Origin: Gammaproteobacteria bacterium | GTDB taxonomy: Bacteria; Pseudomonadota; Gammaproteobacteria; Ga0077536 | DNA: 45,770 nt | Reading direction: 5' to 3' | NCBI GenBank assembly: GCA_019747795.1 | Contig: JAIEQK010000115.1 | Location: forward strand, 1-45,770 | Shown here: positions 1,133 to 44,918 of the stretch, in pieces | Position numbering within the stretch: position 1 is the first letter of the stretch | How the letters are laid out: the number at the start of each line of letters is the position of its first letter | Position numbers and translations under genes: made by a program | The notes under the pieces: generated by a model | The model's input: the letters and a program-made list of their open reading frames with translations, nothing else | Database searches by the model: none | What the model was told of the DNA's origin: nothing

Positions 1133-2221
1133 TCAGCGCGGCGGCCCGCGCCGCTTCGCGGCCAGCAGGCAGAGCAGCGCGCCGCCGAGCAGCGGCAGGC
1201 CCGCCGGCAGGGGCACGGTATGCAGCGCGACGACCGCCGAGAGTGTCGCTTCAGGGGCGATGCTCATCGTGCGCGCGGTGACATCGAAGAAACCCATGCC
1301 GCCGTTGTTCAGCTTGCTGAACGTCGGGCGATCGCGGTCGCAGGGTTCCGTGCTCAGGCAGCCGCCCCAGCCGCCGACGGCGCTGACCACGGCGCTGTCC
1401 AGCACAGCAATGTCCTCGGCGACCAGACGAAAGTTGCCGCCGCTGCCACCGCCGCCCGGACCACCGGTGCCGCCGATGTTGGTGAATCCCCAGCTGCCTT
1501 TGCCGCCGTTGGCGAGCAGCGTGCCGCCGAGCACCAGGGATCCGAGGGTGCTGATCTCCAACGCGCCGCCGCCGTCACCGCCGGCGCCGCCACCAAGCTG
1601 CACGCCGAAGAACATCCAGCCGCCGCCGCCACCGCCGCCCGAGCCGCCCACGATGGGGACGGGGAGCGCGGCCAAGGCGTCAGTGGCCGGCGCGCTCGCG
1701 TTGAAGCGCGTGGGGTCGGCGGCCAAGCCGGGCGTGGCCATGCCGCCACCGCTGCCCGCGTAGCCGGGCGTGGACTTGATGCCGCCCGAGGTGGCGTTCT
1801 GACCTGCATTGCCGCCCAGGAGACCGCCGCCGGCCTGGGCCGGAACGCAGTCCGCCGCGACGCAGGCGGCATCGCCGAAGCCGCCGGCGCCGCCTTCGCC
1901 ACCACCTGGACCGGCGAGCCCGCCGCGCGCCGAGACGTCGATGGTCCCGAACACCTGCACCTCGCCCGTGGCCGCGAGCGTGACCGGCGGCGTGGGGCCG
2001 GCGGCCCGCTTGAAGACCAAGGTCGCGCCCACCGGCACGCTGATGGTGGTGAAGTTGAACACGCCGGACTCGCGCCCGGGCACGGTGAGGTCGAGCACGT
2101 TGACGCCTGGCTGCGCGATGAACGCGCCGTCCGAGCCGTCGGAGATCACACTCGCGGCCTGGGCCGTGCCTAGCGCAGCCAGCAGCACGCCGCAGGTTGT
2201 GAACCTGGTGAAGCAGAACAT
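1133..2221 (-). CDS. Glycine-rich secreted protein with VPLPA-CTERM sorting signal
   Basis: A 362-residue exported protein. It begins with a signal peptide (MFCFTRFTTCGVLLAALGTAQA) and ends with a VPLPA motif, a hydrophobic stretch and a basic tail (AAKRRGPPR). This is the layout of PEP-CTERM/VPLPA-CTERM proteins, which are processed by an exosortase at the inner membrane. The middle is dominated by glycine-rich runs such as GGSGGGGGGG and GGAGGDGGG, resembling surface or matrix proteins. The start at 2221 has GGAGG eight bases upstream. No exosortase gene lies in the window, so the sorting enzyme must be elsewhere. Its role is probably in the cell surface or extracellular matrix; this is inferred from the sorting signal only. 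Confidence 0.8.
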   Translation of the reverse strand: MFCFTRFTTCGVLLAALGTAQAASVISDGSDGAFIAQPGVNVLDLTVPGRESGVFNFTTISVPVGATLVFKRAAGPTPPVTLAATGEVQVFGTIDVSARGGLAGPGGGEGGAGGFGDAACVAADCVPAQAGGGLLGGNAGQNATSGGIKSTPGYAGSGGGMATPGLAADPTRFNASAPATDALAALPVPIVGGSGGGGGGGWMFFGVQLGGGAGGDGGGALEISTLGSLVLGGTLLANGGKGSWGFTNIGGTGGPGGGGSGGNFRLVAEDIAVLDSAVVSAVGGWGGCLSTEPCDRDRPTFSKLNNGGMGFFDVTARTMSIAPEATLSAVVALHTVPLPAGLPLLGGALLCLLAAKRRGPPR

Positions 2222-2373
2222 GGATGCCTCCGTGGAGCTTGCCGCTCTCTCGGTAGTCGTGGGTAGCGATACGTGCGCGCCGCAAGGCAACGCGAGCACG
2301 ACTGTAGGCGTGGATGTCTGGAGGGAGACTGACGCGGGTCAGATTGCCGCGGCGTGGCGGAAAGGACGCAGCT

Positions 2374-3393
2374 TCACACCAGGTGCTTGCTGCGCAGTTC
2401 GTCCTTCATGAAGGCGTAGTACACCGGCGCCGCGATCAGCCCGGCGATGCCGAAGGCCGCTTCCATGGCCAGCATGGCGAGCAGGATCTCCCAGGCGCGC
2501 GCGCGAATCTCGCTGCCGACGATGCGCGCGTTCAGGAAGTACTCGAGCTTGTGAATCGCGACCAGGTAGCCGAGCGAGGCCAGCGCGAGGTACATCGACT
2601 GGCTGAGCGAGACGATGAAGATCATCGTGTTCGACACGAGATTACCGAGTATCGGTATCAGGCCGAGCAGGAAGGTCATCAGCACCAGGGTCTTGCCAAA
2701 GGGCAGGGTGACGCCGAAGGCCGGCAGCACCACCAGCAGGTAGATGCCGGTGAACACGGTATTGATGGCCGAGATGCGCACCTGGGCGAATACCACGCGC
2801 CGGAACGCGCGGGCGAGAATGCGCGCGCGGGTCATGAGCGCGGCGGCCAGCGGTCCGCGGTCGCCGGTGCTCTTAGCGGTCTCGAGGGACACCAAGGCAC
2901 CCACCACCATGCCGATCAGGATGTGCGCCAGCGCGCGGCCGACGCCGGTGCCGGCGACCTGGAACACTTCGGCGTGGGTTCGGAGCCAGGCCACGATCTG
3001 CGCGCGCAGTTCCTCGGTGTTGGTCGGCACGTAGGGCAGCAGCCAGTCCGGCAGGCTCGCGCGTGAATGTTCGACGATCTCCGCCATGCGCTGGATCAGC
3101 GCCGGCACGTTGTCGCCGCCGTTCCGCAGGTAGGACATGAGCGAGAGGATGGCGGCCGAGATCAGCGCGATCAGCACCGAGGCGATCAGCGCCACGGCCA
3201 GCATGCGCGTGGTCTCGCGCCGCGTGTCCTGCGCGCCGGACAGGCGCACCACGGCTTCCACCAGGGTGAAGATCAGAAGCCCCGCGAGCAGCGAGGGCAG
3301 CAGGTGCACGGTCAAGAGCCACAGCAGACCGGCGCCGAACAGCACCCAGGCGGCGATCTCGTAGCGCGTCGTGGTGACGACTTTCAGCGACAC
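2374..3393 (-). CDS. AI-2E family transporter (PerM-like permease)
   Basis: A 339-residue polytopic inner-membrane protein. Hydrophobic segments cluster at residues 10-40 and 60-90, followed by a long amphipathic region, then further segments from about 200 to the end. The C-terminal half contains FGVTLPFGKTLVLMTFLLGLIPILGNL, typical of the AI-2E transporter family (formerly UPF0118/PerM). Length is normal for the family. Characterised members export autoinducer-2 or act as Na+/H+ antiporters, so the name does not prove quorum-signal transport. No luxS is present here. The gene is followed on the same strand by the VPLPA-CTERM gene after about 150 bp. Confidence 0.85.
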   Translation of the reverse strand: MSLKVVTTTRYEIAAWVLFGAGLLWLLTVHLLPSLLAGLLIFTLVEAVVRLSGAQDTRRETTRMLAVALIASVLIALISAAILSLMSYLRNGGDNVPALIQRMAEIVEHSRASLPDWLLPYVPTNTEELRAQIVAWLRTHAEVFQVAGTGVGRALAHILIGMVVGALVSLETAKSTGDRGPLAAALMTRARILARAFRRVVFAQVRISAINTVFTGIYLLVVLPAFGVTLPFGKTLVLMTFLLGLIPILGNLVSNTMIFIVSLSQSMYLALASLGYLVAIHKLEYFLNARIVGSEIRARAWEILLAMLAMEAAFGIAGLIAAPVYYAFMKDELRSKHLV

Positions 3394-3472
3394 GGCGGCC
3401 CAACGAGTCGTGCCCCGCGCGCGCCCTCAGGCGGCGCGCAGGGGACGCGAGCGAGCGTTGTTCGCTGACCCG

Positions 3473-5338
3473 TCACTTGCCCTTCGGACCGTAGGCCACG
3501 AACACGTTGCCGGGCATGCCCCACAGACCGTAGCCCGAGCCGAAGTACACCCAGCCGTCGACCACCACCACGCCGGCGCCCTTGATCGAGCCGCCCTTGG
3601 CCGCAACACCGTTGACGGTCGGATAGTCGCGCTTGGTGTCGATGTCCCAGATGACCTTGCCGGTGGCCGGGTCATAGGCGCGCATGTGGCCGTCCATCGC
3701 GCCGGAGAAGAGCGCGCCCGGGATCAGCACCGCGGCCTGCGGCTGGCCGGCATTGCAGCCTGGCGTCGCGACGCAGTCGGGCTTCTGCGCCGGGGTCTGC
3801 CACAGCGTGCTGCCGTCGGCGAAGTTGAGGGCGTAGATGCCGCCCGCGGCGCCCGGCTCGCTGCGCGTCTCCCACACGTCGGAGATTGGCACGTAGAGAT
3901 GCTTGTCGTCCGCCGCGTAGCCCCACTCGATGCCGCCCAGCACGCCGCCGGGCGAGAGCCGCTTCTGCCACAGGATGGCGCCTTCGGCGTCGGGATCGAC
4001 CGCGTGCATCACGCCCGACTTCTGTCCGGCCAGCAGCACGCGCTTGCCATTCGGCAGCGTGCGCAGGATGGCCGACGAGCCGAAGTCCACGTCCGGCCCG
4101 CAGCCTTCCTTCGATTCCGGTGCGGCGTTGTGCGCGACGCAGGCGGCGGTGAAGGCGTCGTCGGCGGTCATCTGCTTGTGCCAGCGGATCGCGCCGGTGT
4201 CGAGATCGAGGGCGACGATGGCGTCCGAGGTCGGTGCCGCCGGCTGCGAGTAGGCGTCGCCGGTGGTGACGTACAGCGCGTTCTGCTTCACGTCGACGGT
4301 CGGCTGCGACCACACCGCCGCGCCCGAGGGCCCCCACAGCTGCACGCCCTTGGCGGTCACCACGGTCTTCTTCGGCGCCTCGGGGATGATGTAGCTCTGC
4401 CACAGACGCTTGCCGGTCTCGACCTCGTAGGCCACCACGCTGCCGCGGAAGGTGCAGCACTCGTAGGTCGGCGAGCCGCCCGCCAGTTCCTCGAAGGACG
4501 CGAAGGGAATGTACATGCGCTTGCCGTGGAACGCGGCCGAGCCGGTGTTCATTGCCCACGGATGGGCTTCGGGCTTGTCCTTCCACAGCTGCTTGCCGCT
4601 GTCGGCGTCGATGCCGTAGACCGCGGCCTTGCGGTCGCCCGCGATCAGCATCAGCGTGCCGTCGTCGCGCTTGTAGGCCTGGATGGCGCCACGCACTTCA
4701 CCTTCGGTCTCGAACTTCCAGTAGGCGCAGCCGGTCTTCGCGTCCAGCGCGTAGATGCCGCCCGCCGGACCGCCGATGAAGATGCGACCGCCGAGTACCG
4801 CGGCCTGGGTCGAGACGCTCGCGCCGGTGGGAAAGCCGAGCGCCCACTTGAACTCCAGGTTGCCAAGATCGGCGGGCGCGAGGCCGGCCTGCGCAGCGGG
4901 CTGGAAATGGGTGTTGTCGGCGTCCAGTCCCCAGCCCGACCAGTGCGGCTTGTCGAGTGCCTTCTGATCGAGCGGCGCGGGGGAGGCGCACATGGTCAGC
5001 TGCTCGGCAGCCTTGGCGTCCTTGACCGAGCCCCACGGGATCTCGGACAGGTAGATGGCAACCGCGCGCTTCTCCATGTCGTTCAGCGCCGCGGCGTTCA
5101 GCACCATCTTGCCGGACAGCTGCGCCTGGTAGATGAACTCCGGCGTGAGCTTGGCCATCTGGTCGCGGGGCAGGGCGCGCGGCACCGGCGGGTCGCCGTG
5201 GCAGGCCGCGCAGGCCTTCTCGAACGCATGTTGGCCGATGGCCTTGTCGTCGCCGGCCCACGCGCCCACGGCAAGCGCCGCGCACGCGATGGCCAGCATG
5301 AGGCCCAGGATCCGTCGCCCCAGCCGCAAATTCCGCAT
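3473..5338 (-). CDS. Quinohaemoprotein dehydrogenase (N-terminal cytochrome c, PQQ propeller)
   Basis: A 621-residue periplasmic enzyme. A signal peptide (about residues 1-28) precedes a haem c domain with CAACH at residues 43-47 and a candidate axial methionine near 79. The rest is a PQQ beta-propeller with repeated blade motifs such as GGIYALDAKTG and GKVIWDID. Vicinal cysteines C295-C296 recall the disulfide that packs on PQQ in quinoprotein alcohol dehydrogenases. The haem-before-propeller order matches polyvinyl-alcohol dehydrogenases, whereas type II/III alcohol dehydrogenases carry the haem at the C-terminus. The likely role is oxidising an alcohol and passing electrons to the respiratory chain; the substrate is unknown. 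GGGGGAG precedes the start. Confidence 0.85.
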   Translation of the reverse strand: MRNLRLGRRILGLMLAIACAALAVGAWAGDDKAIGQHAFEKACAACHGDPPVPRALPRDQMAKLTPEFIYQAQLSGKMVLNAAALNDMEKRAVAIYLSEIPWGSVKDAKAAEQLTMCASPAPLDQKALDKPHWSGWGLDADNTHFQPAAQAGLAPADLGNLEFKWALGFPTGASVSTQAAVLGGRIFIGGPAGGIYALDAKTGCAYWKFETEGEVRGAIQAYKRDDGTLMLIAGDRKAAVYGIDADSGKQLWKDKPEAHPWAMNTGSAAFHGKRMYIPFASFEELAGGSPTYECCTFRGSVVAYEVETGKRLWQSYIIPEAPKKTVVTAKGVQLWGPSGAAVWSQPTVDVKQNALYVTTGDAYSQPAAPTSDAIVALDLDTGAIRWHKQMTADDAFTAACVAHNAAPESKEGCGPDVDFGSSAILRTLPNGKRVLLAGQKSGVMHAVDPDAEGAILWQKRLSPGGVLGGIEWGYAADDKHLYVPISDVWETRSEPGAAGGIYALNFADGSTLWQTPAQKPDCVATPGCNAGQPQAAVLIPGALFSGAMDGHMRAYDPATGKVIWDIDTKRDYPTVNGVAAKGGSIKGAGVVVVDGWVYFGSGYGLWGMPGNVFVAYGPKGK

Positions 5339-5373
5339 GTGAAAGTCTCCCCCAAGGAGCGCGGCCCGGTGAT

Positions 5374-5402
5374 GAAGAAAGGCGGCCGCGCGAAGCCGCC
5401 GG
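5374..5402 (-). terminator. Putative intrinsic terminator after the glutathione transferase gene
   Basis: On the minus strand a 6-bp GC stem (GGCGGC / GCCGCC, bases 5381-5400) is followed by a T-rich tail (TTTCTTC). It sits between the transferase stop at 5446 and the start of the dehydrogenase at 5338, so it may separate their transcripts. The stem is short, so efficiency is uncertain. Confidence 0.4.
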
Positions 5403-5445
5403 CATTATCGCAGAAGCGCCGCGTCGCCGGGCGAGCCCGACGGGC

Positions 5446-6072
5446 TCAGGGCGCGGTCGACGCCTCGGTCGGGCGGTCGAGCAGGCGCACGTGATTCGGC
5501 TGCGCCGCCACGCGCGCCAGCCACGCGCGCACCGACGCATAGGGCGCGAGCGTGTGTCCGCCGTCCTCGGCCACGTGGGTATAGGCATAGAGCGCGATGT
5601 CGGCGATGGAGTAGCGCCCGTCGACGAAATACGGCGCGGCGGCGAGGTGCCGCTCCATCACCTCGAGCGCCGCGCGTCCACGGGCGAGGCGCTCCGGCAG
5701 TTCGGCCTGGCGGGGATGGTCGGCCGGCAGGTGCCGCACGATGTAGCGCGGGGTCGCCACGTAAGGCTCGTGGCTGTACTGCTCGAAGAACATCCACTGC
5801 AGCACCTGCGCACGGCCGAGCGCGGTCGCCGGCATCAGCGCCGAGCCCTCGGCCAGGTACCAGAGGATGGCGTTCGATTCCGCGAGGTGCGTGCCGTCGT
5901 CGAGTTCGAGCGTCGGCACGCGACCGTTCGGGTTGCGTGCCAGGAACGCCGGCGTGCGGGTCTCGCCACGGTCGATGTCGAGTTCGGTCCAGGCGTAGCG
6001 CAGGCCGAGCTGGGCGCAGAGCAGGCGGACCTTGTAGCCATTGCCCGAGTCGAGATAGTCGAACAGTCGCAT
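5446..6072 (-). CDS. Glutathione S-transferase family protein
   Basis: A 208-residue cytosolic protein with the usual two-domain layout. The N-terminal thioredoxin-like half contains NPNGRVPTLELDDGTHLAESNAIL, with the conserved cis-proline (VPTL) and the ES pair that binds the gamma-glutamyl group. The C-terminal half is helical (YSIADIALYAYTH). It would conjugate glutathione to electrophiles or use it as cofactor for isomerisation or reduction. It is divergent from the LysR gene at 6173, which may control it; the roughly 100 bp between them is the likely shared control region. The substrate is unknown. Confidence 0.88.
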   Translation of the reverse strand: MRLFDYLDSGNGYKVRLLCAQLGLRYAWTELDIDRGETRTPAFLARNPNGRVPTLELDDGTHLAESNAILWYLAEGSALMPATALGRAQVLQWMFFEQYSHEPYVATPRYIVRHLPADHPRQAELPERLARGRAALEVMERHLAAAPYFVDGRYSIADIALYAYTHVAEDGGHTLAPYASVRAWLARVAAQPNHVRLLDRPTEASTAP

Positions 6073-6172
6073 GGGCGTAACTCCGATGTGAGGGCAGGCG
6101 CAGTCTCGCCAATCCGCGCGCGCCAGGCGAGCGAGGCGCGCTGACGCTGCTGGCTAAGATATTCTTGCCCTC

Positions 6173-7105
6173 GTGACGAAACGTCCGCTGCCGCCGCTCA
6201 ATGCCCTGCGCGCCTTCGAGGCGGCGGCGCGCCATGGCAGCTACGTGGCCGCCGCCGTCGAACTGCACGTGTCGGCGGCGGCCATCAGCCAGCAGGTGCG
6301 CAATCTCGAGGATTACCTGGGCGTGCAGCTGTTCGAACGCCTCGCCCATGGCCTGGCGCTGACCGAGGCCGGCCGCGACTGGCTGCCCGAGCTGTCCGCC
6401 GGCTTCGACCTGCTCGGCGAGTCCACCGCGCGCCTGCGCGGACGGCGCGCGGACGGCGTGCTCACGATCACCATGCTGGCGGCCTTCGCCAACGGCTGGC
6501 TGTTGCCGCGCCTGCAGCGCTTCCGCGAACGGGCGCCGCGCGTGGACGTGGTGATCCGCACCGCCAAGACCCTGGCCGACTTCCGCCGCGATGCGATCGA
6601 CCTGGCCATTCGCCTCGGTCCCGGCGTCGGACGTGGTCTCGCCGGCCACGCGCTGTGCGCCGAGGAATTGTTCCCGGTGGCGAGTCCCCAGTTGTTTCGC
6701 GGTGGCCACCTGCCGGACTCGCTTGAGGCGCTTCGCGACTACCCGCTGCTGCACGATACCGACGCCGGCGGCGAGCAGCCGTGGTTGGGCTGGCGAGCCT
6801 GGTTCGAACGCGCCGGCCTCGAACCGACACAGGCGGCGCGCGGCATCGGCTGCAGCGATTCGGTGGTGCTGATTGCCGCGGCGCTGAACGGCCTCGGCAT
6901 CGCGCTCGGCCGCGCGGCGCTGGTCGGCCCGCTGCTCGCCACCGGCCAGCTCGTTCGAGTCACCAGCGAGACCTGGCTCGCGCCGTGGCGCTATCACCTG
7001 GTCGCCCCGGCGGCACATTTTCGCCGGCCCGCGGTGCGCGCCTTCACCGACTGGGCGCTGGAGGAGGGGGGAGCGGCCACGGGCGGGTCCCATGTGCCGC
7101 GCTGA
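6173..7105 (+). CDS. LysR-type transcriptional regulator (GcvA-like)
   Basis: A 310-residue regulator starting at a GTG. It opens with PLPPLNALRAFEAAARHGS, typical of the GcvA/AmpR branch, followed by a winged helix-turn-helix (AAAVELHVSAAAISQQVRNLE, about residues 27-47). The remainder is a periplasmic-binding-protein-like effector domain containing RDAIDLAIRLGPG. It is divergently arranged with the glutathione transferase gene, the classic LysR layout, and it also lies upstream of the acyl-CoA operon at 7233. Either could be its target. The effector is unknown. Confidence 0.9.
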   Translation: MTKRPLPPLNALRAFEAAARHGSYVAAAVELHVSAAAISQQVRNLEDYLGVQLFERLAHGLALTEAGRDWLPELSAGFDLLGESTARLRGRRADGVLTITMLAAFANGWLLPRLQRFRERAPRVDVVIRTAKTLADFRRDAIDLAIRLGPGVGRGLAGHALCAEELFPVASPQLFRGGHLPDSLEALRDYPLLHDTDAGGEQPWLGWRAWFERAGLEPTQAARGIGCSDSVVLIAAALNGLGIALGRAALVGPLLATGQLVRVTSETWLAPWRYHLVAPAAHFRRPAVRAFTDWALEEGGAATGGSHVPR

Positions 7106-7232
7106 GGCGCGGGTCGCGCGTCAAAGCTTGATACCCGTCAAGAACGGCGCGCGACAATCGCGCGACGGTGGCGACGACTTCCGGGCGCCGTCGGCGTTCG
7201 GCCCGCCTGTCGCATTCACGGGGAGAACCACC

Positions 7233-8543
7233 ATGGCCGCTGTACCGCGAGACTTCACGCTCCTGGGCCGTCCGTCGACCGACGTGCGCATCGCGAAGTG
7301 GGCCGCGACGCCGCGTCCACGCCTCGGCACGCTGGGCGCCGAATGCCCGATGAGCGAGGAGGAGAGCGCCATCGTCGATACCCTGCGGCGCTTCGCCGAG
7401 AACGAGATGCGGCCGACCGGCGAGCTGCTCGATCGCCTGACCCCCGAGCAGGTGGTGGCGCCGGACTCGCCCCTGTGGCGCTTCTACGCGAAGTTCCAGG
7501 AGCTCGGCTTCACCGTCGACCTGTTGCTCGGCATGGAACCGCTGCAGCGCGCCAAGGTGATGTGCCTGTTCTACGAGATTCTCGGCTGGGGCGATTCGGG
7601 GCTCGCGATCTCGATCGGCGCCGGCACCTTGCCGCGCTATCTCGCGCGCCTGTTCGGCAACGACTACCTGGCGTCGCTGTGCGCCGACGACGTGATTGGC
7701 TGCTGGGGCATCACCGAGCCCGACCACGGCAGCGATTCGCTGGACCCCGAAGGCAATGCCGCGCATGCGAGCGGCGCCTATGGCCGACCGAACTGCGTCG
7801 CGACGCTCAAATCCGATCGCATCGTGATCAACGGTCAGAAGTCGGCCTGGGTGTCCAACGGGCCCATCGGCCAGGTGTGCATCCTGTACTGCGCGGCGGA
7901 CACCGGCGCAGGCGCCGATGCGCGCCACGGCGCCTGCGTCATCGTGCCGTGCAACGCGCGTGGCGTGAGCAAGGGCAAGCCGCTCGACAAGTTGGGGCAG
8001 CGCGCGCTGCCGCAGGGCGAAATCTTCTTCGACAACGTCGAACTCGGGCTCGAGCACCTGCTGGCCGGTCCCGAGCACTTCCAGCGCGCGGTCTACGCCA
8101 TCCACGCCGAGGCCAACGTGCTGATGGGCGCGTGCTTCACCGGCGTCGCGCAGCGCGCCTACGAACTCGCCCACGCCTATGCCCACGAGCGTCGCCAGGG
8201 TGGGCAGCCGCTGGTCCAGCACCAGAACGTCCGCTACCGGCTGTTCCACATGTTCCGGCGCGTGGAGGCCGCGCGCGCGGTGACGCGGCGCGCCTGCGAG
8301 TACAACATGGTCATGCAGCAGCCGGCGCTGCAGGCGGCGATGGTGTCCAAGGTCACCGGCACGCAGACCGCGTTCGAAGTCGCGAGCGACGCGCTGCAGA
8401 TGTTCGGCGGCAACGGCATGACCCGCGCCTACCCTATGGAGAAGCTGCTGCGCGACGCCCGCGCGAGCTTGATCGAGGACGGCTGTAACGAGATCCTGTC
8501 GATCCTCGGAGGCTCGGCGCTGGTCGACCCCGACCTGCTGTAA
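7233..8543 (+). CDS. Acyl-CoA dehydrogenase
   Basis: A 436-residue flavoprotein that introduces an alpha-beta double bond in an acyl-CoA and passes electrons to ETF. The central domain shows the substrate/flavin loop CWGITEPDHGSD and the C-terminal helical domain contains LQMFGGNGMTRAYPMEKLLRDAR. E415 in LIEDGCNEI aligns with the catalytic glutamate of medium-chain enzymes (YEGTSQI), though the surrounding motif is unusual. The start at 7233 follows GGGGAGA. It is the first gene of a three-gene operon, 22 bp before the thiolase gene. It is somewhat longer than typical (about 390) because of an N-terminal extension of about 45 residues. The substrate is unassigned. Confidence 0.88.
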   Translation: MAAVPRDFTLLGRPSTDVRIAKWAATPRPRLGTLGAECPMSEEESAIVDTLRRFAENEMRPTGELLDRLTPEQVVAPDSPLWRFYAKFQELGFTVDLLLGMEPLQRAKVMCLFYEILGWGDSGLAISIGAGTLPRYLARLFGNDYLASLCADDVIGCWGITEPDHGSDSLDPEGNAAHASGAYGRPNCVATLKSDRIVINGQKSAWVSNGPIGQVCILYCAADTGAGADARHGACVIVPCNARGVSKGKPLDKLGQRALPQGEIFFDNVELGLEHLLAGPEHFQRAVYAIHAEANVLMGACFTGVAQRAYELAHAYAHERRQGGQPLVQHQNVRYRLFHMFRRVEAARAVTRRACEYNMVMQQPALQAAMVSKVTGTQTAFEVASDALQMFGGNGMTRAYPMEKLLRDARASLIEDGCNEILSILGGSALVDPDLL

Positions 8544-38159: not shown

Positions 38160-38597
<438 letters not shown>

Positions 38598-38788
38598 CTG
38601 TGGCGGAGTGGGGGCGAGAGGCTGCCTCTGCCGCGGAAACCATAACCCGCGCGCATGGCCGCGCGGGGTGGATGTAAACGTTCAAGCTCGGGCCAGGGCT
38701 GCCGCTAAGATGGCCGAACAGGGGTCGTGCGCGGCCCACCTTCCAGAGGGAAGGCATTTATATCCATCGGCGGGCGGCGGTTCCTCTC

Positions 38789-40282
38789 TTGACAGGGTTA
38801 ATCAACGATCCGGCTTTCGCTTTCCATCGGTCGTCCCTGCGCCCAGCAGCTCAGGACGACCTCAGTTTCTCCCTGCAGCACTGCCTGCACAGCGCCCTGC
38901 TGCATCTCGCGCCGGTGGTGGTATTCAGGCCTGACGGCGAAATCGTGCTATGGGGACGTGGTGCCGAACGCACCACCGGCTACAAGTCAGAGCAGGCCTT
39001 GCACGCCACGTTCGCCCACCTCGTTAAGCCCCACTTTCGCTGCCGCTGGGCGGAGGTGGAGGAGGAGATCGCACGCTCCGGAGAATGGTGTGGCGAGGTC
39101 ACAATCTGTCATGCGGACGGCCGCTATGTGGACGTCGTCGTCCACCTCGTGCGGTTCGTCGACCCGGACTCGGGCGAAGCACTGATGCTCGAGTCGCACG
39201 TCGATATCAGCGCGCAGAAGTTAGCCGAGGCCTCGAGCTATGCCGCCGAACAGACGCTCGTCCAGGCCCTGCGTCACGGTGGCGCCGGAACCTGGACTTT
39301 CGATTCTGAGCGCGACGAGGTGCGCTGGGATCTCACCACGCAACGACTGCTCGAGCGGGGGGATTTCCCGGTTTCCCACGGTCGCATTCCTCTGCGATTG
39401 GCACTGACCGCGTTGCACGAGTCGTGTCGGGAGGCAATGGACACGGGGGTCGCGGACACGCTTCGCGACGGCCGCGACAGGCAGATGGATTTACGCCTCG
39501 CTGGCGCGGGCGAGGAGCGCTGGATATCGGTGACTCTGCGCCGGCCGCTGCACGCGCGAGGCTCTGCCGCACTGGTCACAGGTACCGTCACGGATATCAC
39601 CGACCGGGTACGTATCGTTCGGCAGCTGGCCGCATCCCGGGAGGATGTTCGGCGCTATGTCCACGGACTCGATGCTGCCATCGAGGACCAGCGCCGGCAC
39701 ATCGCGCGCGAACTGCACGACGAACTCGGACAGCGCCTCACGGCCCTGAAGATCGATCTACATTGGTTGACGCGGACGCTCGAGGGCGGCGTGGGTATGA
39801 ATGAAGCCACCCGCGCACGCTTGCGCGACATGGACAGCATCATCGCGGATACCATCACCGAAGTGCGCTCGCTGAGCGCCATGCTGCGCCCGCTGGAACT
39901 CGATCACCTGGGCTTGGTGGCGGCGCTGGACGCATTTCTCGACAAGTTCCAAGCCCGGACCTCGCTCGAGGTCCGACGCAACCTCGACAAGGCCGACCAG
40001 GTGGGCGCGGAGCATCGAATGGCGGTGTTCCGCATCGTCCAGGAGGCGTTGACCAACGTGGCGCGCCACAGCGAGGCCAGCGCTGTGGAAGTACGGGCGA
40101 GCGAGGTCGCTGGCATGCTGCGAATCGAAGTGCGGGACAATGGCAAGGGTATGCCGGCGACAGCGCCTCCCGGGCACTTCGGCGTGACGGGCATGCGCGA
40201 GCGCGCCGAAGCGATTGGCGGCACTCTGGACATCCACAGTGAAGGCGGAACCCACGTGGTGCTCGACCTGCCCGGTGCCTGA
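38789..40282 (+). CDS. PAS-domain sensor histidine kinase (NarL-partner type)
   Basis: A 497-residue kinase without transmembrane segments. A first PAS domain (about 42-150, PVVVFRPDGEIVLWGRGAERTTGYK) is followed by a second PAS-like region (about 160-280). The HisKA_3 dimerisation domain has the phospho-acceptor H310 in ARELHDELGQRL, and the HATPase has NVARHSEASA, EVRDNGKGMP and GHFGVTGMRERAEAIGG. The start is TTG at 38789 with only a weak ribosome-binding site, so the first residues are uncertain. The cognate response regulator starts 2 bp after its stop. Being cytosolic, it likely senses an internal cue, perhaps redox or a metabolite. Confidence 0.9.
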   Translation: MTGLINDPAFAFHRSSLRPAAQDDLSFSLQHCLHSALLHLAPVVVFRPDGEIVLWGRGAERTTGYKSEQALHATFAHLVKPHFRCRWAEVEEEIARSGEWCGEVTICHADGRYVDVVVHLVRFVDPDSGEALMLESHVDISAQKLAEASSYAAEQTLVQALRHGGAGTWTFDSERDEVRWDLTTQRLLERGDFPVSHGRIPLRLALTALHESCREAMDTGVADTLRDGRDRQMDLRLAGAGEERWISVTLRRPLHARGSAALVTGTVTDITDRVRIVRQLAASREDVRRYVHGLDAAIEDQRRHIARELHDELGQRLTALKIDLHWLTRTLEGGVGMNEATRARLRDMDSIIADTITEVRSLSAMLRPLELDHLGLVAALDAFLDKFQARTSLEVRRNLDKADQVGAEHRMAVFRIVQEALTNVARHSEASAVEVRASEVAGMLRIEVRDNGKGMPATAPPGHFGVTGMRERAEAIGGTLDIHSEGGTHVVLDLPGA

Positions 40283-40284
40283 TC

Positions 40285-40914
40285 GTGCACCACGTGGTGA
40301 TCGCCGACGACCATCCTCTGCTGCGGCGTGGCATCGTCGAGGTGCTGCGCGGACGGTGGCCGCAGGCGCGCTACCACGAGGCCGACGATGCGGCAGGACT
40401 GTTCCATGCACTCGAGATCGGAACGCCTGACCTGGTGATCCTCGACCTGTCGCTGCCGGATCGACACGGTCTGGACTGCCTGGCGGCCTTACGACGGCTT
40501 CATCCGCAACTTCCCGTGCTGGTCCTCAGCATGCACGACGAGCAGTCGTGGGGTATGCGGGTTCTGGACAGCGGGGCCATGGGCTACCTGACCAAGGAGC
40601 GGGCGCCGACGGAACTGGTCAGCGCAGTGGACCGGATCCTGCGTGGTCGCAGGTACGTAGGGCCGGAGCTCGGCGAGATCCTCGTGTCACGTCGGACGGC
40701 AGGTGAGTCGCTCGCTCACGAGCAGCTGTCCGAGCGGGAATTTCGCGTGCTGCAATTGCTTGCCAGGGGGGAGAGTCTGACGGCCATCGCTGCGCAGTTG
40801 TTCCTGAGCCCTAAGACCATCACGACCTATCGCGCCAGGCTACTGACCAAGCTTGGACTGCGCAACAACGCCGAGCTGGTGCGCTACTGCGTTGACCAAG
40901 GGCTGGTGGGCTGA
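40285..40914 (+). CDS. NarL/FixJ-type response regulator
   Basis: A 209-residue regulator with a GTG start. The receiver domain shows acidic residues DDH near residues 8-10, the phospho-acceptor D54 in LVILDLSLPD and the lysine in YLTKERAP. The LuxR-type helix-turn-helix is LSEREFRVLQLLARGESLTAIAAQLFLSPKTITTYRARLLTKLGL. It follows the histidine kinase directly and should be its partner. A 14-bp palindrome lies 26 bp after its stop and may be a binding site for it. Confidence 0.93.
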   Translation: MHHVVIADDHPLLRRGIVEVLRGRWPQARYHEADDAAGLFHALEIGTPDLVILDLSLPDRHGLDCLAALRRLHPQLPVLVLSMHDEQSWGMRVLDSGAMGYLTKERAPTELVSAVDRILRGRRYVGPELGEILVSRRTAGESLAHEQLSEREFRVLQLLARGESLTAIAAQLFLSPKTITTYRARLLTKLGLRNNAELVRYCVDQGLVG

Positions 40915-40939
40915 GCGCGCGATTCGCAGGCCGGACGGC

Positions 40940-40953
40940 TAGGGGAAACCCTA
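40940..40953. promoter_or_regulatory. Palindrome TAGGG-N4-CCCTA, candidate response-regulator site
   Basis: An inverted repeat TAGGGGAAACCCTA lies in the 152-bp gap between the NarL-type regulator and the GGDEF/EAL gene at 41067. NarL/LuxR-family regulators bind such short inverted repeats. Its place suggests control of the downstream cyclic-di-GMP gene. No second copy was noticed in the window. Confidence 0.45.
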
Positions 40954-41066
40954 CACGCCGCACCTACCCTGCCTGACATTCTCTCGCGGGCAGCACCCAT
41001 CGGTGCGCCGACCGTCGAGGACTACTCTGAGTCGCATCAAGTCCGCCACAAAGGAAGCCGCGCGCA

Positions 41067-43319
41067 ATGCCTCTTCAAATGGCCCTGAACTCGGTTCTAC
41101 TGGTCGACGATTCGACCGCTGTCCGCTCTCGACTCGCGGGGATCCTCGCGGAGCTCGACGGTGTAGGTGAGATCAGGGAGGCCTCCAATCTGAGCGAAGC
41201 CCGCCTTCAGCTTCAGGACTTCTGCCCCGACACGGTAGTGCTGGATATCGAGATGCCCGGTGGGAGCGGACTGGAGATGCTCGATGAGCTGCGCGCCGGT
41301 CAGCCGGGCGGGCAAGTCATCGTCCTGACCAACTACCCGACGCCCGAATACCGCAACCGCTGCCTGACCATGGGCGCGACCTACTTTCTGGACAAGACGC
41401 TGGAGTTCCACCGCGTTGCGGAAATCATCACGGGTGCGGTGACAGAGTTCGCGGACTCGCCCGCCGAGGTCCGCGAAGAGGTGGAACGGCTGCTCGACCT
41501 GTTTGACTATCGCATCATCGGCACGCCGGCGGAGCAATGTTATGACGATCTGACCGCGATGGCCGCCCGTCTGTGTGCCGCGCCGGTTGCCTTGCTGACC
41601 TTGCATGATGCCGACAGGCAATGGGTGAAAAGCTGCAACGGTATCGCCCTGGCGGACATCCCAGACATCCGCAGGCATTGCGAGCGGACCGCGCTGGGTA
41701 TCGCTCCTTATGTGGTCGAGGCGTTCGATGAGCCGGCGAACGAGGGCGCGGGCACGAGCCGCGACGGCCATCTGTGCTTTTTCGCCGGAGCGCCGCTCAT
41801 CGCTGAGAATGGCTTCAGCCTGGGCACTTTGTCGGTCATGGACTATTGTCCTCGACGACTCGACGACGAGCAGTTGGGCTTCCTGCAGGCCTTGGCGCGG
41901 CAGGTGGTGTCTCTGCTCGAAATGCGCCGCACCGCGCTCGAGTTTCGTAACGTCCATGTCCGTCGCTCGATGACCGAGAAAGCTCTTGAGGCGCGCTCGG
42001 CCACCGACCCCCTCACGGGTCTTTCAAACCGTGTCGCCTTTCGGCAGGCGCTGGGCCACGCCCTGGTGCGGGCACAAGAGCAGCGGACCCGCGTCGCATG
42101 CTTGTACATAGATCTGGATGACTTCAAGAAGGTCAACGATGACCTCGGTCACGCCGCTGGAGACGCCCTGCTGCGCATGGTCGCCGAGCGGCTGCGAGAC
42201 ACCTTGCGCGATTCCGACGTCGTCGCGCGGCTCGGCGGAGACGAGTTCGCAGTGGCCTTGGTCGGGGTAGGGGAGGTGGACCATGTAGCACTGCTGGCCA
42301 GACGGCTGCTCGACCGCCTCGGTTCGCCCTACCAGCTCGGCAGCAACGTCGTGTGGGTGCGCGCCAGCATAGGGATCAGCGTGTCGCCCGAGGACGGCAA
42401 CGAGGTCGATGAACTCCTGCAGCGGGCCGATCTCGCGCTGGCCTATGTGAAGGAGCGGGGGAAATCCGAGTTCCACTTCTTCGCCGAGGACCTGCGGGAG
42501 CGTCGGAACGCGCGTCTAGAATTGGAAAGCCGGCTCCGCCGGGCCGTGGAGCACGGCGAGTTCACCTTGGTCTATCAGCCACGTATCGCCTGTGATAATG
42601 GCGCGCTGGTGGGCTGTGAAGCCCTGTTGCGATGGCCGGGAGCGGATGGCTTTGCCGGCAACGTGCGCACCCTTGTTGAGGAGGCGGAGAAGTTGGGTCT
42701 CGGCGAGGCGCTCGGTGATTGGGTCGTGGAGCACGCCTGCGCGCAGTTGTCCCGCTGGCGCCAGCAAGGACTCGCCATGCCAACTCTGGCGATCAACGTC
42801 ACGTCCAGTCAGATGCGGCCCGAGTTCGCCGCGCGCCTGCGCGACATCGCGGCCGCCCACGACGTGCCGCTTTCCTGCCTGGAGATCGAGATCAGCGAGG
42901 ACTATGTCCTGCGCGACCTGGTGCGGGCGCGGGAGGCCATCGACGCCATTCGTGGCCTGGGCGCGCGCGTGGCGCTGGACGATTTCGGCACGGGATACGC
43001 GGCCCTGTCCGTGCTGCGGTCCGTACGCTTCGACGCAGTCAAGATCGATCCGATCATCGTGCGCAGCGTGGGAGGCGGGGACCTGGACGGGGCGATGGCC
43101 TCGGGGCTCATCGCGCTCGCGCGCACCCTCGGGCTGCGCATCACTGCGGAAGGCGTGGAGACGGGCGCGCAGTTGATGGCCTTGCGGGCCGACGACTGTG
43201 ACGACTTCCAGGGCTACCTGATAAGTCCACCCTTGCCCCCGGACTCGCTCGCGGAGGTGGCGCAGGCGCGCCGTGCCAACGTGCCAACGGCTCTATTACG
43301 CGGGAGGGACTGGCGGTGA
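41067..43319 (+). CDS. REC-GAF-GGDEF-EAL cyclic-di-GMP protein
   Basis: A 750-residue cytosolic protein. A receiver domain (about 8-125: LLVDDSTAVR, the phospho-aspartate in VVLDIEMPGG, and LDKT with the conserved lysine) is followed by a GAF domain (about 150-290), a diguanylate cyclase domain with RLGGDEFAV (near 389-395) and a phosphodiesterase domain. EAL-domain residues are kept: GCEALLRW (E about 517), EISEDYVL, ALDDFGTGYAALSVL, VKIDP, AEGVET (near 694). Both catalytic domains look active on paper. AAAGGAAG lies upstream. Its receiver likely takes phosphate from a kinase nearby. The last codons overlap the next gene by 4 bases. Confidence 0.93.
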   Translation: MPLQMALNSVLLVDDSTAVRSRLAGILAELDGVGEIREASNLSEARLQLQDFCPDTVVLDIEMPGGSGLEMLDELRAGQPGGQVIVLTNYPTPEYRNRCLTMGATYFLDKTLEFHRVAEIITGAVTEFADSPAEVREEVERLLDLFDYRIIGTPAEQCYDDLTAMAARLCAAPVALLTLHDADRQWVKSCNGIALADIPDIRRHCERTALGIAPYVVEAFDEPANEGAGTSRDGHLCFFAGAPLIAENGFSLGTLSVMDYCPRRLDDEQLGFLQALARQVVSLLEMRRTALEFRNVHVRRSMTEKALEARSATDPLTGLSNRVAFRQALGHALVRAQEQRTRVACLYIDLDDFKKVNDDLGHAAGDALLRMVAERLRDTLRDSDVVARLGGDEFAVALVGVGEVDHVALLARRLLDRLGSPYQLGSNVVWVRASIGISVSPEDGNEVDELLQRADLALAYVKERGKSEFHFFAEDLRERRNARLELESRLRRAVEHGEFTLVYQPRIACDNGALVGCEALLRWPGADGFAGNVRTLVEEAEKLGLGEALGDWVVEHACAQLSRWRQQGLAMPTLAINVTSSQMRPEFAARLRDIAAAHDVPLSCLEIEISEDYVLRDLVRAREAIDAIRGLGARVALDDFGTGYAALSVLRSVRFDAVKIDPIIVRSVGGGDLDGAMASGLIALARTLGLRITAEGVETGAQLMALRADDCDDFQGYLISPPLPPDSLAEVAQARRANVPTALLRGRDWR

Positions 43320-44185
43320 TCGGGGCAGGAACGATGTCACCGACGAGTCCGGCAACGACGTTTCGCGGGCCCATGATGGTCGTAGTATGGAGTGACCGCG
43401 AGGGAATCCTGGGCGTGAACGACGGTTTCTGCGCCCTGACTCGTACGCCGGCGTCGGAATTGGTGGGACGGCCCGTCGCGCAATTGAGCACAGTGCTGGG
43501 CGACGAGTTTGGCGAACTCGCGGCCCGTGCGCGAGCCTCGGGGCGCGAGGTGACCGGGATACTCGACCTCCAAGGCGAGGCCGATGTGCGCCTGCGAGTC
43601 GCGGTCACAGTGAGCGGCCTCAACCTCGACCTTCCCCCCCTCGCGAGGCACGTCGCGGTGGCTCACGTCGCCGCGAGGATTCATGGTGCCTCGGCCAGAG
43701 ATCGGCAGCTGGGTGATGTGTCTGACACAGCCAGGTCCGGGGCCGAAGGGTTTGCCGTGAAGCCATTCCTCGAGGTGGTCGCCCGCGCCTATCGGGCAGG
43801 GAGCCCGGATTCGAGCTCCCTGACGGTGGACTGTGACGCCCAGGTGCGTGTGCGGGCGGTTGCCCGACAATCGTTCCGGCGTTGTGTGTGGGAACTGGTG
43901 AACCAGGGGTGGGAGGGAGCCGCCACGATGTCGGTCAGACGACTGCGCGCGGGCGGACCACAGTTCTACACCGGCCAATGCGCCCACTGCGGCGTGACGT
44001 TCTCGGATAAGTGGATCGCGGTCGAGGTGGCGTGTCTGCCACCCGCGCGGCCCCTACAGGGCGCCGCGCGCGCGCACGCGATCACCAATCTGGGCCCGCT
44101 GGTCCATGTGGGTGGCGGCCACCTCATGGTCGCGACGGGGGACGGCGGTGAGGCCTGCACCCGGCTGCTGTTCGTGCCGGGCTGA
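43316..44185 (+). CDS. PAS protein with degenerate histidine-kinase ATPase domain
   Basis: A 289-residue protein starting at GTG within a GTGA overlap with the cyclic-di-GMP gene. The N-terminus (about 15-120) fits a PAS domain (SDREGILGVNDGFCALTRTPASELVG). The C-terminus looks like a HATPase fold: WELVNQGWEGA in the N-box place, a CAHC zinc-knuckle-like motif, and ITNLGPLVHVGGGHLMVATGDGGEACTRLLFVPG in the G-box place. No phospho-acceptor histidine or clear G1 aspartate is seen, so kinase activity is unlikely. It is probably a signal-binding partner of the upstream enzyme. A decayed hybrid kinase is the alternative. Confidence 0.65.
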   Translation: MIGAGTMSPTSPATTFRGPMMVVVWSDREGILGVNDGFCALTRTPASELVGRPVAQLSTVLGDEFGELAARARASGREVTGILDLQGEADVRLRVAVTVSGLNLDLPPLARHVAVAHVAARIHGASARDRQLGDVSDTARSGAEGFAVKPFLEVVARAYRAGSPDSSSLTVDCDAQVRVRAVARQSFRRCVWELVNQGWEGAATMSVRRLRAGGPQFYTGQCAHCGVTFSDKWIAVEVACLPPARPLQGAARAHAITNLGPLVHVGGGHLMVATGDGGEACTRLLFVPG

Positions 44186-44234
44186 GCGCCGCGCCGGGCG
44201 GCCTTCAGCGCCCGGCGTGATCGTCCAGTCGGCC

Positions 44235-44918
44235 TCAGGCCGGCTTCTTCATCCCAAGGCGCTCGTAGTACTTGAGCGGCACCTGCGCCGGGTCCTTGTA
44301 GATGACCATGCGGCAGTAGTCGCGACCGAGCTTCTCCGCCGGCTCGACCACGCAGAACGGCGCGCCGTTCTGCTCGATGTCGATCTTCTCCATCGAATAC
44401 TCGTGCGCGCAGTACACCGGGTAGTCGGCGCGGCCGTAGGTCAGCGGCTGGGGCTTGGCTATCTTGTGGAAGGCGTTGTCGCCCTCGTACTTGCCCTCGG
44501 AGATCAGGCGCCCGCCGCTGCCGCAGGGCTTCATCTTGATTTCGACCTTCTCGTCGTCCTCGCTGATCTCGAGCGGCTGCAGATGCCCCTGCAGGCCGGC
44601 CGCGAACATCTTGATGCGTGCCTTCATGGTGTCCGGGCCCTTGGGCTGGGCGGCGACCAGCGGCGCCCACCAGGCGCGCACGCCCTCGTTCATGATCTCT
44701 TCGAGTTCCTCGTCGCCGTGGCGGCGCGCGATCTCCGAGAGCGTGGCGGTGACCCAGTTGCGATACAGGTCGTGCATGGACAGGAATTCGTTGTACATGC
44801 GTCGTGCGATCTTCTTGGCCTTCTCGCCGTCGCCGGCGTCGATGGCTTCGACCAGGCGATCGACCGTGCGCTTCTCCATCTCGCGCAGTTCGTCTTCGCT
44901 GAAGAATTTCTCCGCCAT
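44235..44918 (-). CDS. Uncharacterised Cys-containing protein
   Basis: A 227-residue cytosolic protein with no signal peptide. A helical N-terminal half (ELREMEKRTVDRLVEAIDAGDGEKAKKIARRMYNEF) is followed by a region with KPCGSGGRL, YPVYCAHEYSME, APFCVVEPAEKLGRDYC. The cysteine and histidine spacing hints at metal binding, but I cannot assign a family. GGGGAGTACCGAC precedes the ATG at 44918. It lies on the same strand as the TauD-type gene, which starts further right; 42 bp separate the two, so they are probably cotranscribed and may act in one pathway. Confidence 0.7.
   Translation of the reverse strand: MAEKFFSEDELREMEKRTVDRLVEAIDAGDGEKAKKIARRMYNEFLSMHDLYRNWVTATLSEIARRHGDEELEEIMNEGVRAWWAPLVAAQPKGPDTMKARIKMFAAGLQGHLQPLEISEDDEKVEIKMKPCGSGGRLISEGKYEGDNAFHKIAKPQPLTYGRADYPVYCAHEYSMEKIDIEQNGAPFCVVEPAEKLGRDYCRMVIYKDPAQVPLKYYERLGMKKPA

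Follow-up and report, generated by a model that had tools for sequence, protein, structure and literature searches.

To our knowledge, histidine-kinase pseudokinases are few, and the best studied of them, DivL, keeps its DHp domain, which is the surface by which kinases usually dock their receivers. DivL of Caulobacter provides the precedent of a kinase relative that regulates a pathway without phosphotransfer; the protein retains the DHp and, except for a Tyr substitution, the H, N, G1, F and G2 motifs, and binds DivK through its DHp-CA part (PMC4211667). A kinase CA domain has also been related to c-di-GMP signalling in the RavS-RavR pair of Xanthomonas, where c-di-GMP, by binding to the CA domain of RavS, governs phosphotransfer to RavR, a regulator of the GGDEF-EAL type (PMC6707612). 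Here we describe a protein comparable in part with both, encoded in a stretch of 45,770 nucleotides from a gammaproteobacterial genome (contig JAIEQK010000115.1, assembly GCA_019747795.1), to be called the window. The gene (43316-44185, forward strand, as are the other three signalling genes and all the domains located below) was taken from the open reading frame list, starts with GTG and codes for 289 amino acids comprising a PAS domain and a degenerate CA (HATPase) domain, hence the name PAS-CA used here. Our preferred reading, to which we assign a probability of roughly 0.45, is that PAS-CA serves as an accessory, non-catalytic PAS/metal-site subunit of a c-di-GMP module, the metal, the partner and the direction of control being presumed.

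The PAS domain (residues 20-102, 43373-43621) is suggested by a match to the Pfam PAS_9 model with an E-value of 1.9e-4 and 22.1 bits, under the gathering score of 27, and no clear closest relative of this half was found among the paralogous kinases. Pfam gave neither a HATPase_c nor a HisKA match up to E 1, and NCBIfam gave no match to the protein. Between the end of the PAS domain and the ATPase-like part there are only about 30-40 residues. The segment VAHVAARIHG was considered as a degenerate H-box and rejected, as it is more readily taken for the final strand of the PAS domain and is devoid of the acidic residue and the NN that follow the histidine in CxxC kinases. The degenerate CA domain covers residues 140-289 (43733-44182), as judged from the profile, ungapped alignment and alignment-guided model presented below. 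In the alignment, the segment WELVNQGW is superimposed on the N-box NLxINARD, with Glu193 and Gln197 replacing both asparagines (residues 189-201, 43880-43918). At the G1-box position (residues 238-244, 44027-44047) the aspartate is replaced by Cys240 and the glycines by Pro242 and Ala244, and the F-box/lid/G2 region (44048-44101) is about 15 residues shorter than in the intact relatives and has no glycine motif. Hence, all the features of an active histidine kinase, namely the DHp, the N-box asparagines, the G1 DxGxG and the F-box/lid/G2 glycines, are lost and, because of these losses, PAS-CA should be neither a kinase nor an ordinary ATP binder, as far as can be judged from the sequence. The preliminary description of this DNA had proposed a protein without phospho-acceptor histidine or G1 aspartate, with an N-box-like WELVNQGW and unable to act as a conventional kinase; the short linker and the lack of a HisKA match bear out the first point, the alignment the second and third, and the loss of DHp and ATP-binding motifs the last one.

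The origin of the C-terminal half was approached by searching related genomes, in which two kinases (L005 and L004) were found with marginal per-genome E-values of 2e-4 and 5e-4, both carrying a CxxC just ahead of the G1 strand. Residues 140-244 of PAS-CA align with them over 105 residues without a gap, and two alignment modes agree. The source genome holds about ten intact kinases of this class, which are hybrid kinases with the CxxC in the ATPase domain. A family profile built from 11 CxxC CA domains gave PAS-CA 13.5 bits (E 2e-6, as a single sequence), against 8.2 bits for the best of 4000 shuffled versions of the protein. Structure prediction from the single sequence yielded a pLDDT of 37, and the fold search with this model gave no significant match. 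When four kinase CA domains were supplied in the alignment the pLDDT was 63 and the pTM 0.60, and the best matches of the resulting model were all kinase CA domains (PhoQ, NtrB and RetS, Foldseek E about 1e-4, the best 9e-5); comparison with VanS gave a VIA Z of 12.1 and an rmsd of 3.2 Å over 120 aligned residues. Since the model leans on the kinase CA domains fed to the predictor, it constitutes supporting and not independent evidence. The profile score above all the shuffles and the ungapped alignment, with this fold match as an aid, substantiate the HATPase-like outline perceived earlier, and the view that residues 140-289 are a degenerate HATPase descending from CxxC hybrid histidine kinases is supported. 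The objection raised in the preliminary description to its own proposal, that most relatives could be intact and this one simply damaged, applies in part, at the family level, where the paralogs are intact; no intact orthologous gene was found.

The CxxC had been regarded as an addition to PAS-CA. It is instead an inherited feature, the hallmark of the parent kinase family. A residue comparison of 122 kinase CA domains, 33 with and 89 without CxxC, gave as the best group-separating positions Cys225 (fractions of 1.00 in the CxxC group and 0.01 in the others), Cys222 (1.00 and 0.06), His264 (0.94 and 0.00) and His269 (0.97 and 0.15); the cysteines separate the groups by construction, because the CxxC defined them, the histidines do not, and shared ancestry within the CxxC group could inflate the Cys/His association. 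All four are retained in PAS-CA, the cysteines at 43979-43990 and the histidines at 44105-44107 and 44120-44122, so that the protein shows the pattern of the CxxC CA subfamily, in which C-x-x-C precedes the G1 strand and is accompanied by a His of the G2 helix and by GGH. The co-occurrence of this residue set in CxxC kinases suggests a putative metal site, probably for zinc, of which the four residues would be the ligands. PAS-CA keeps 4 of the 4 family-specific Cys/His and 8 of the 38 other positions conserved in the 11-member family (12 of 42 in total), an argument framed after the CxxC had been seen. The CA domains of the CxxC hybrid kinases collected in loci L068-L077 and L038-L067 have the co-occurring Cys-Cys-His-His, as a predicted metal site. 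In the literature searched, no relevant account was found of a CxxC or zinc site in the CA domains of kinases, nor of DHp-less pseudokinases, which does not prove that none has been reported. Among the structural matches listed for CxxC kinases, the alignments with solved structures contained no CxxC, the nearest chain being CckA, which is without it.

The genomic setting places PAS-CA last in a 5.65-kb segment (38581-44233) that holds only four signalling genes. The first codes for an intact PAS-PAS-HisKA_3-HATPase kinase (38789-40282), identified by Pfam and with H, N and G1 boxes present, which is likely the cognate kinase of the module. It is followed by a LuxR-type response regulator (40285-40914, Pfam Response_reg and GerE) and by a protein of 750 amino acids (41067-43319) whose strong Pfam matches, intact catalytic motifs and I-site RxxD agree with its earlier assignment as REC-GAF-GGDEF-EAL. 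The GTG start of PAS-CA overlaps the TGA of this last gene as GTGA (43316-43319), which upholds the translational coupling of both genes put forward before. Directly 3' of the PAS-CA stop codon there is a strong G+C-rich hairpin without a T run (44190-44219; -28.3 kcal/mol for the fold of 44183-44232). The module showed no sigma-70-like promoter, and direct repeats were not found at either end of the insertion. The segment is flanked by a universal stress protein gene ending at 38597 and by a gene at 44235-44918. In two congeners (loci L190 and L191) the corresponding site has none of the four genes and the flank genes are near neighbours, their matching parts being separated by about 230 and 430 bp of other sequence; therefore the segment has either been inserted here or been lost from both congeners. 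In L191, an open reading frame between the flank genes (about 1450-1823) has a start that by eye resembles a TauE/SafE-type membrane protein. The GC3 of the four module genes is 0.77-0.80, and that of nearly all the other genes of the window 0.82-0.94. These values fit joint acquisition of the four genes by horizontal transfer and, therefore, the PAS-CA gene is to be counted with the module and not with the surrounding chromosome.

The PAS-CA reading frame is real and not an accident of high G+C, because it contains no stops, whereas the two remaining forward frames have 12 and 6 of them, and only 0.44% of first-order Markov random sequences with the same dinucleotide content were open over its length. 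Codon choice is better in this frame than in either of the others. The GC3-GC2 contrast, 0.22, is the lowest among the 43 gene calls of the window, with a raised GC2, as expected under relaxed constraint; it amounts to 0.31-0.35 in the other module genes and to 0.37-0.48 in the CA domains of the intact paralogs. No ortholog was found in 58 relatives, 36 genomes of the family or order, 369 of the class and 398 of the phylum, in the plasmids and viral contigs searched, or by a peptide-pattern scan of 84,980 genomes, which is weak beyond close relatives; therefore, no conservation backs a function. A genome-wide scan with the REC-GAF alignment detected only two modules and one distant REC. The modules belong to the gammaproteobacterial MAGs Bin_9R and Bin_33 (L154, covering locus L033 of G374, and L155; about positions 1600-7500 in both), and have the same order of HisKA_3 kinase, LuxR regulator and a related REC-GAF-GGDEF protein, with 32-36% identity. 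They are devoid of the PAS-CA gene and also of the EAL domain that the window version has.

Several of these observations would be accounted for if PAS-CA were a functionless relic, a CxxC kinase without DHp and lid that is drifting and remains in frame by chance or recency. We hold this to be a serious possibility, if well short of an even chance. The orphan state of the gene, the low codon-position contrast, the few conserved family positions remaining and the existence of related modules without it all agree with decay; a frame that is open where chance gives 0.4%, its codon choice, losses that are all in frame, the intact start/stop overlap and a complete C2H2 set, when only about a fifth of the other conserved positions persist, speak against it. 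The proposal of a subunit draws on the open frame, in-frame losses, GTGA overlap and C2H2 retention, together with module membership and the shared GC3; the lack of an ortholog, the lowest GC3-GC2 contrast, the absent DHp and the two MAG modules without the gene count against it. A second alternative, by analogy with RavS-RavR, is that the CA-like domain would bind c-di-GMP and feed back on the enzyme. It can be entertained because c-di-GMP binds to the CA domains of RavS (PMC6707612) and CckA (PDB 5idm), the partner of RavS is a response regulator with GGDEF and EAL domains, and the PAS-CA gene overlaps that of such an enzyme. However, PAS-CA is eroded in the CA region where RavS has its reported contact, Arg656, and no c-di-GMP motif was seen in it, and we deem this alternative improbable. 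More improbable still is that the C-terminal half is no HATPase at all, as the missing Pfam match and the low-confidence single-sequence model would have it, given a profile score above every shuffle, the collinear alignment, the retained family-specific residues and the alignment-guided fold match. Finally, the idea of a divergent domain that still binds nucleotide, with Glu193 at the glutamate position of HisKA_3 kinases and GHL ATPases (ELVNQ versus EALTN in the upstream kinase), is scarcely credible with Gln197 at the Mg-binding asparagine, CLPPA as G1 and no lid/G2 glycines.

As an accessory subunit, PAS-CA would represent a branch of the CxxC hybrid-kinase family that has given up catalysis, combining a PAS sensor with a CA domain that has no phosphotransfer, and would be translated from the same message as the REC-GAF-GGDEF-EAL enzyme and right after it. 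The CA-like domain may be metal-stabilised or sense metal or redox state. Together with the PAS domain, it would presumably bind either the c-di-GMP enzyme or the PAS-PAS kinase by which this enzyme is probably phosphorylated, and the binding would bias the activity of the partner. As regards the partner, synteny indicates that the receiver of the enzyme is most likely phosphorylated by the upstream HisKA_3 kinase. This kinase is a likelier one for the receiver than PAS-CA, since it is intact and lies with the LuxR regulator directly upstream, and since the same pair accompanies the REC-GAF-GGDEF relatives in the two MAGs without the PAS-CA gene. Moreover, the missing DHp weakens the case for docking of PAS-CA to the receiver, which the preliminary description had suggested together with a possible control of the enzyme; it is as likely that the PAS or the CA-like domain binds the kinase or the GAF/GGDEF part of the enzyme. 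A more specific version, which we find unlikely, is that a CA domain stripped of ATP binding and phosphotransfer has been reused as a regulatory subunit of the bifunctional c-di-GMP enzyme that responds to metal or redox state by way of the predicted CxxC/His/His site; this site would then be an undescribed regulatory or structural feature of the large family of CxxC hybrid kinases. A DHp-less PAS-CA protein that has a predicted metal site and no ATP binding would set the scaffold or metal role of the CA domain apart from catalysis, and because CxxC occurs with two His across the family, metal binding can be tested directly in many hybrid kinases. If PAS-CA is a relic, the locus would illustrate ordinary gene decay within a horizontally moved module.

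Compared with the described systems, PAS-CA is closest to the CxxC hybrid kinases (PAS-HisKA-HATPase, often with REC, and with an HDFNN-type H-box), with which it shares the collinearity of the CA domain over 105 residues, the CxxC and two His, and an upstream PAS. It differs from them in having no DHp, N-box asparagines, G1, F, lid, G2 or receiver domain. It resembles DivL in joining a PAS sensing part to a kinase-derived module without phosphotransfer, as a candidate regulator of another signalling protein, whereas the absence of the DHp and the erosion of the CA domain set it apart from a protein that binds a response regulator on the basis of its DHp. With RavS-RavR (PMC6707612) it has in common the pairing of a CA domain of kinase type with a response regulator that contains GGDEF and EAL domains, RavS being, in contrast to PAS-CA, an active kinase.
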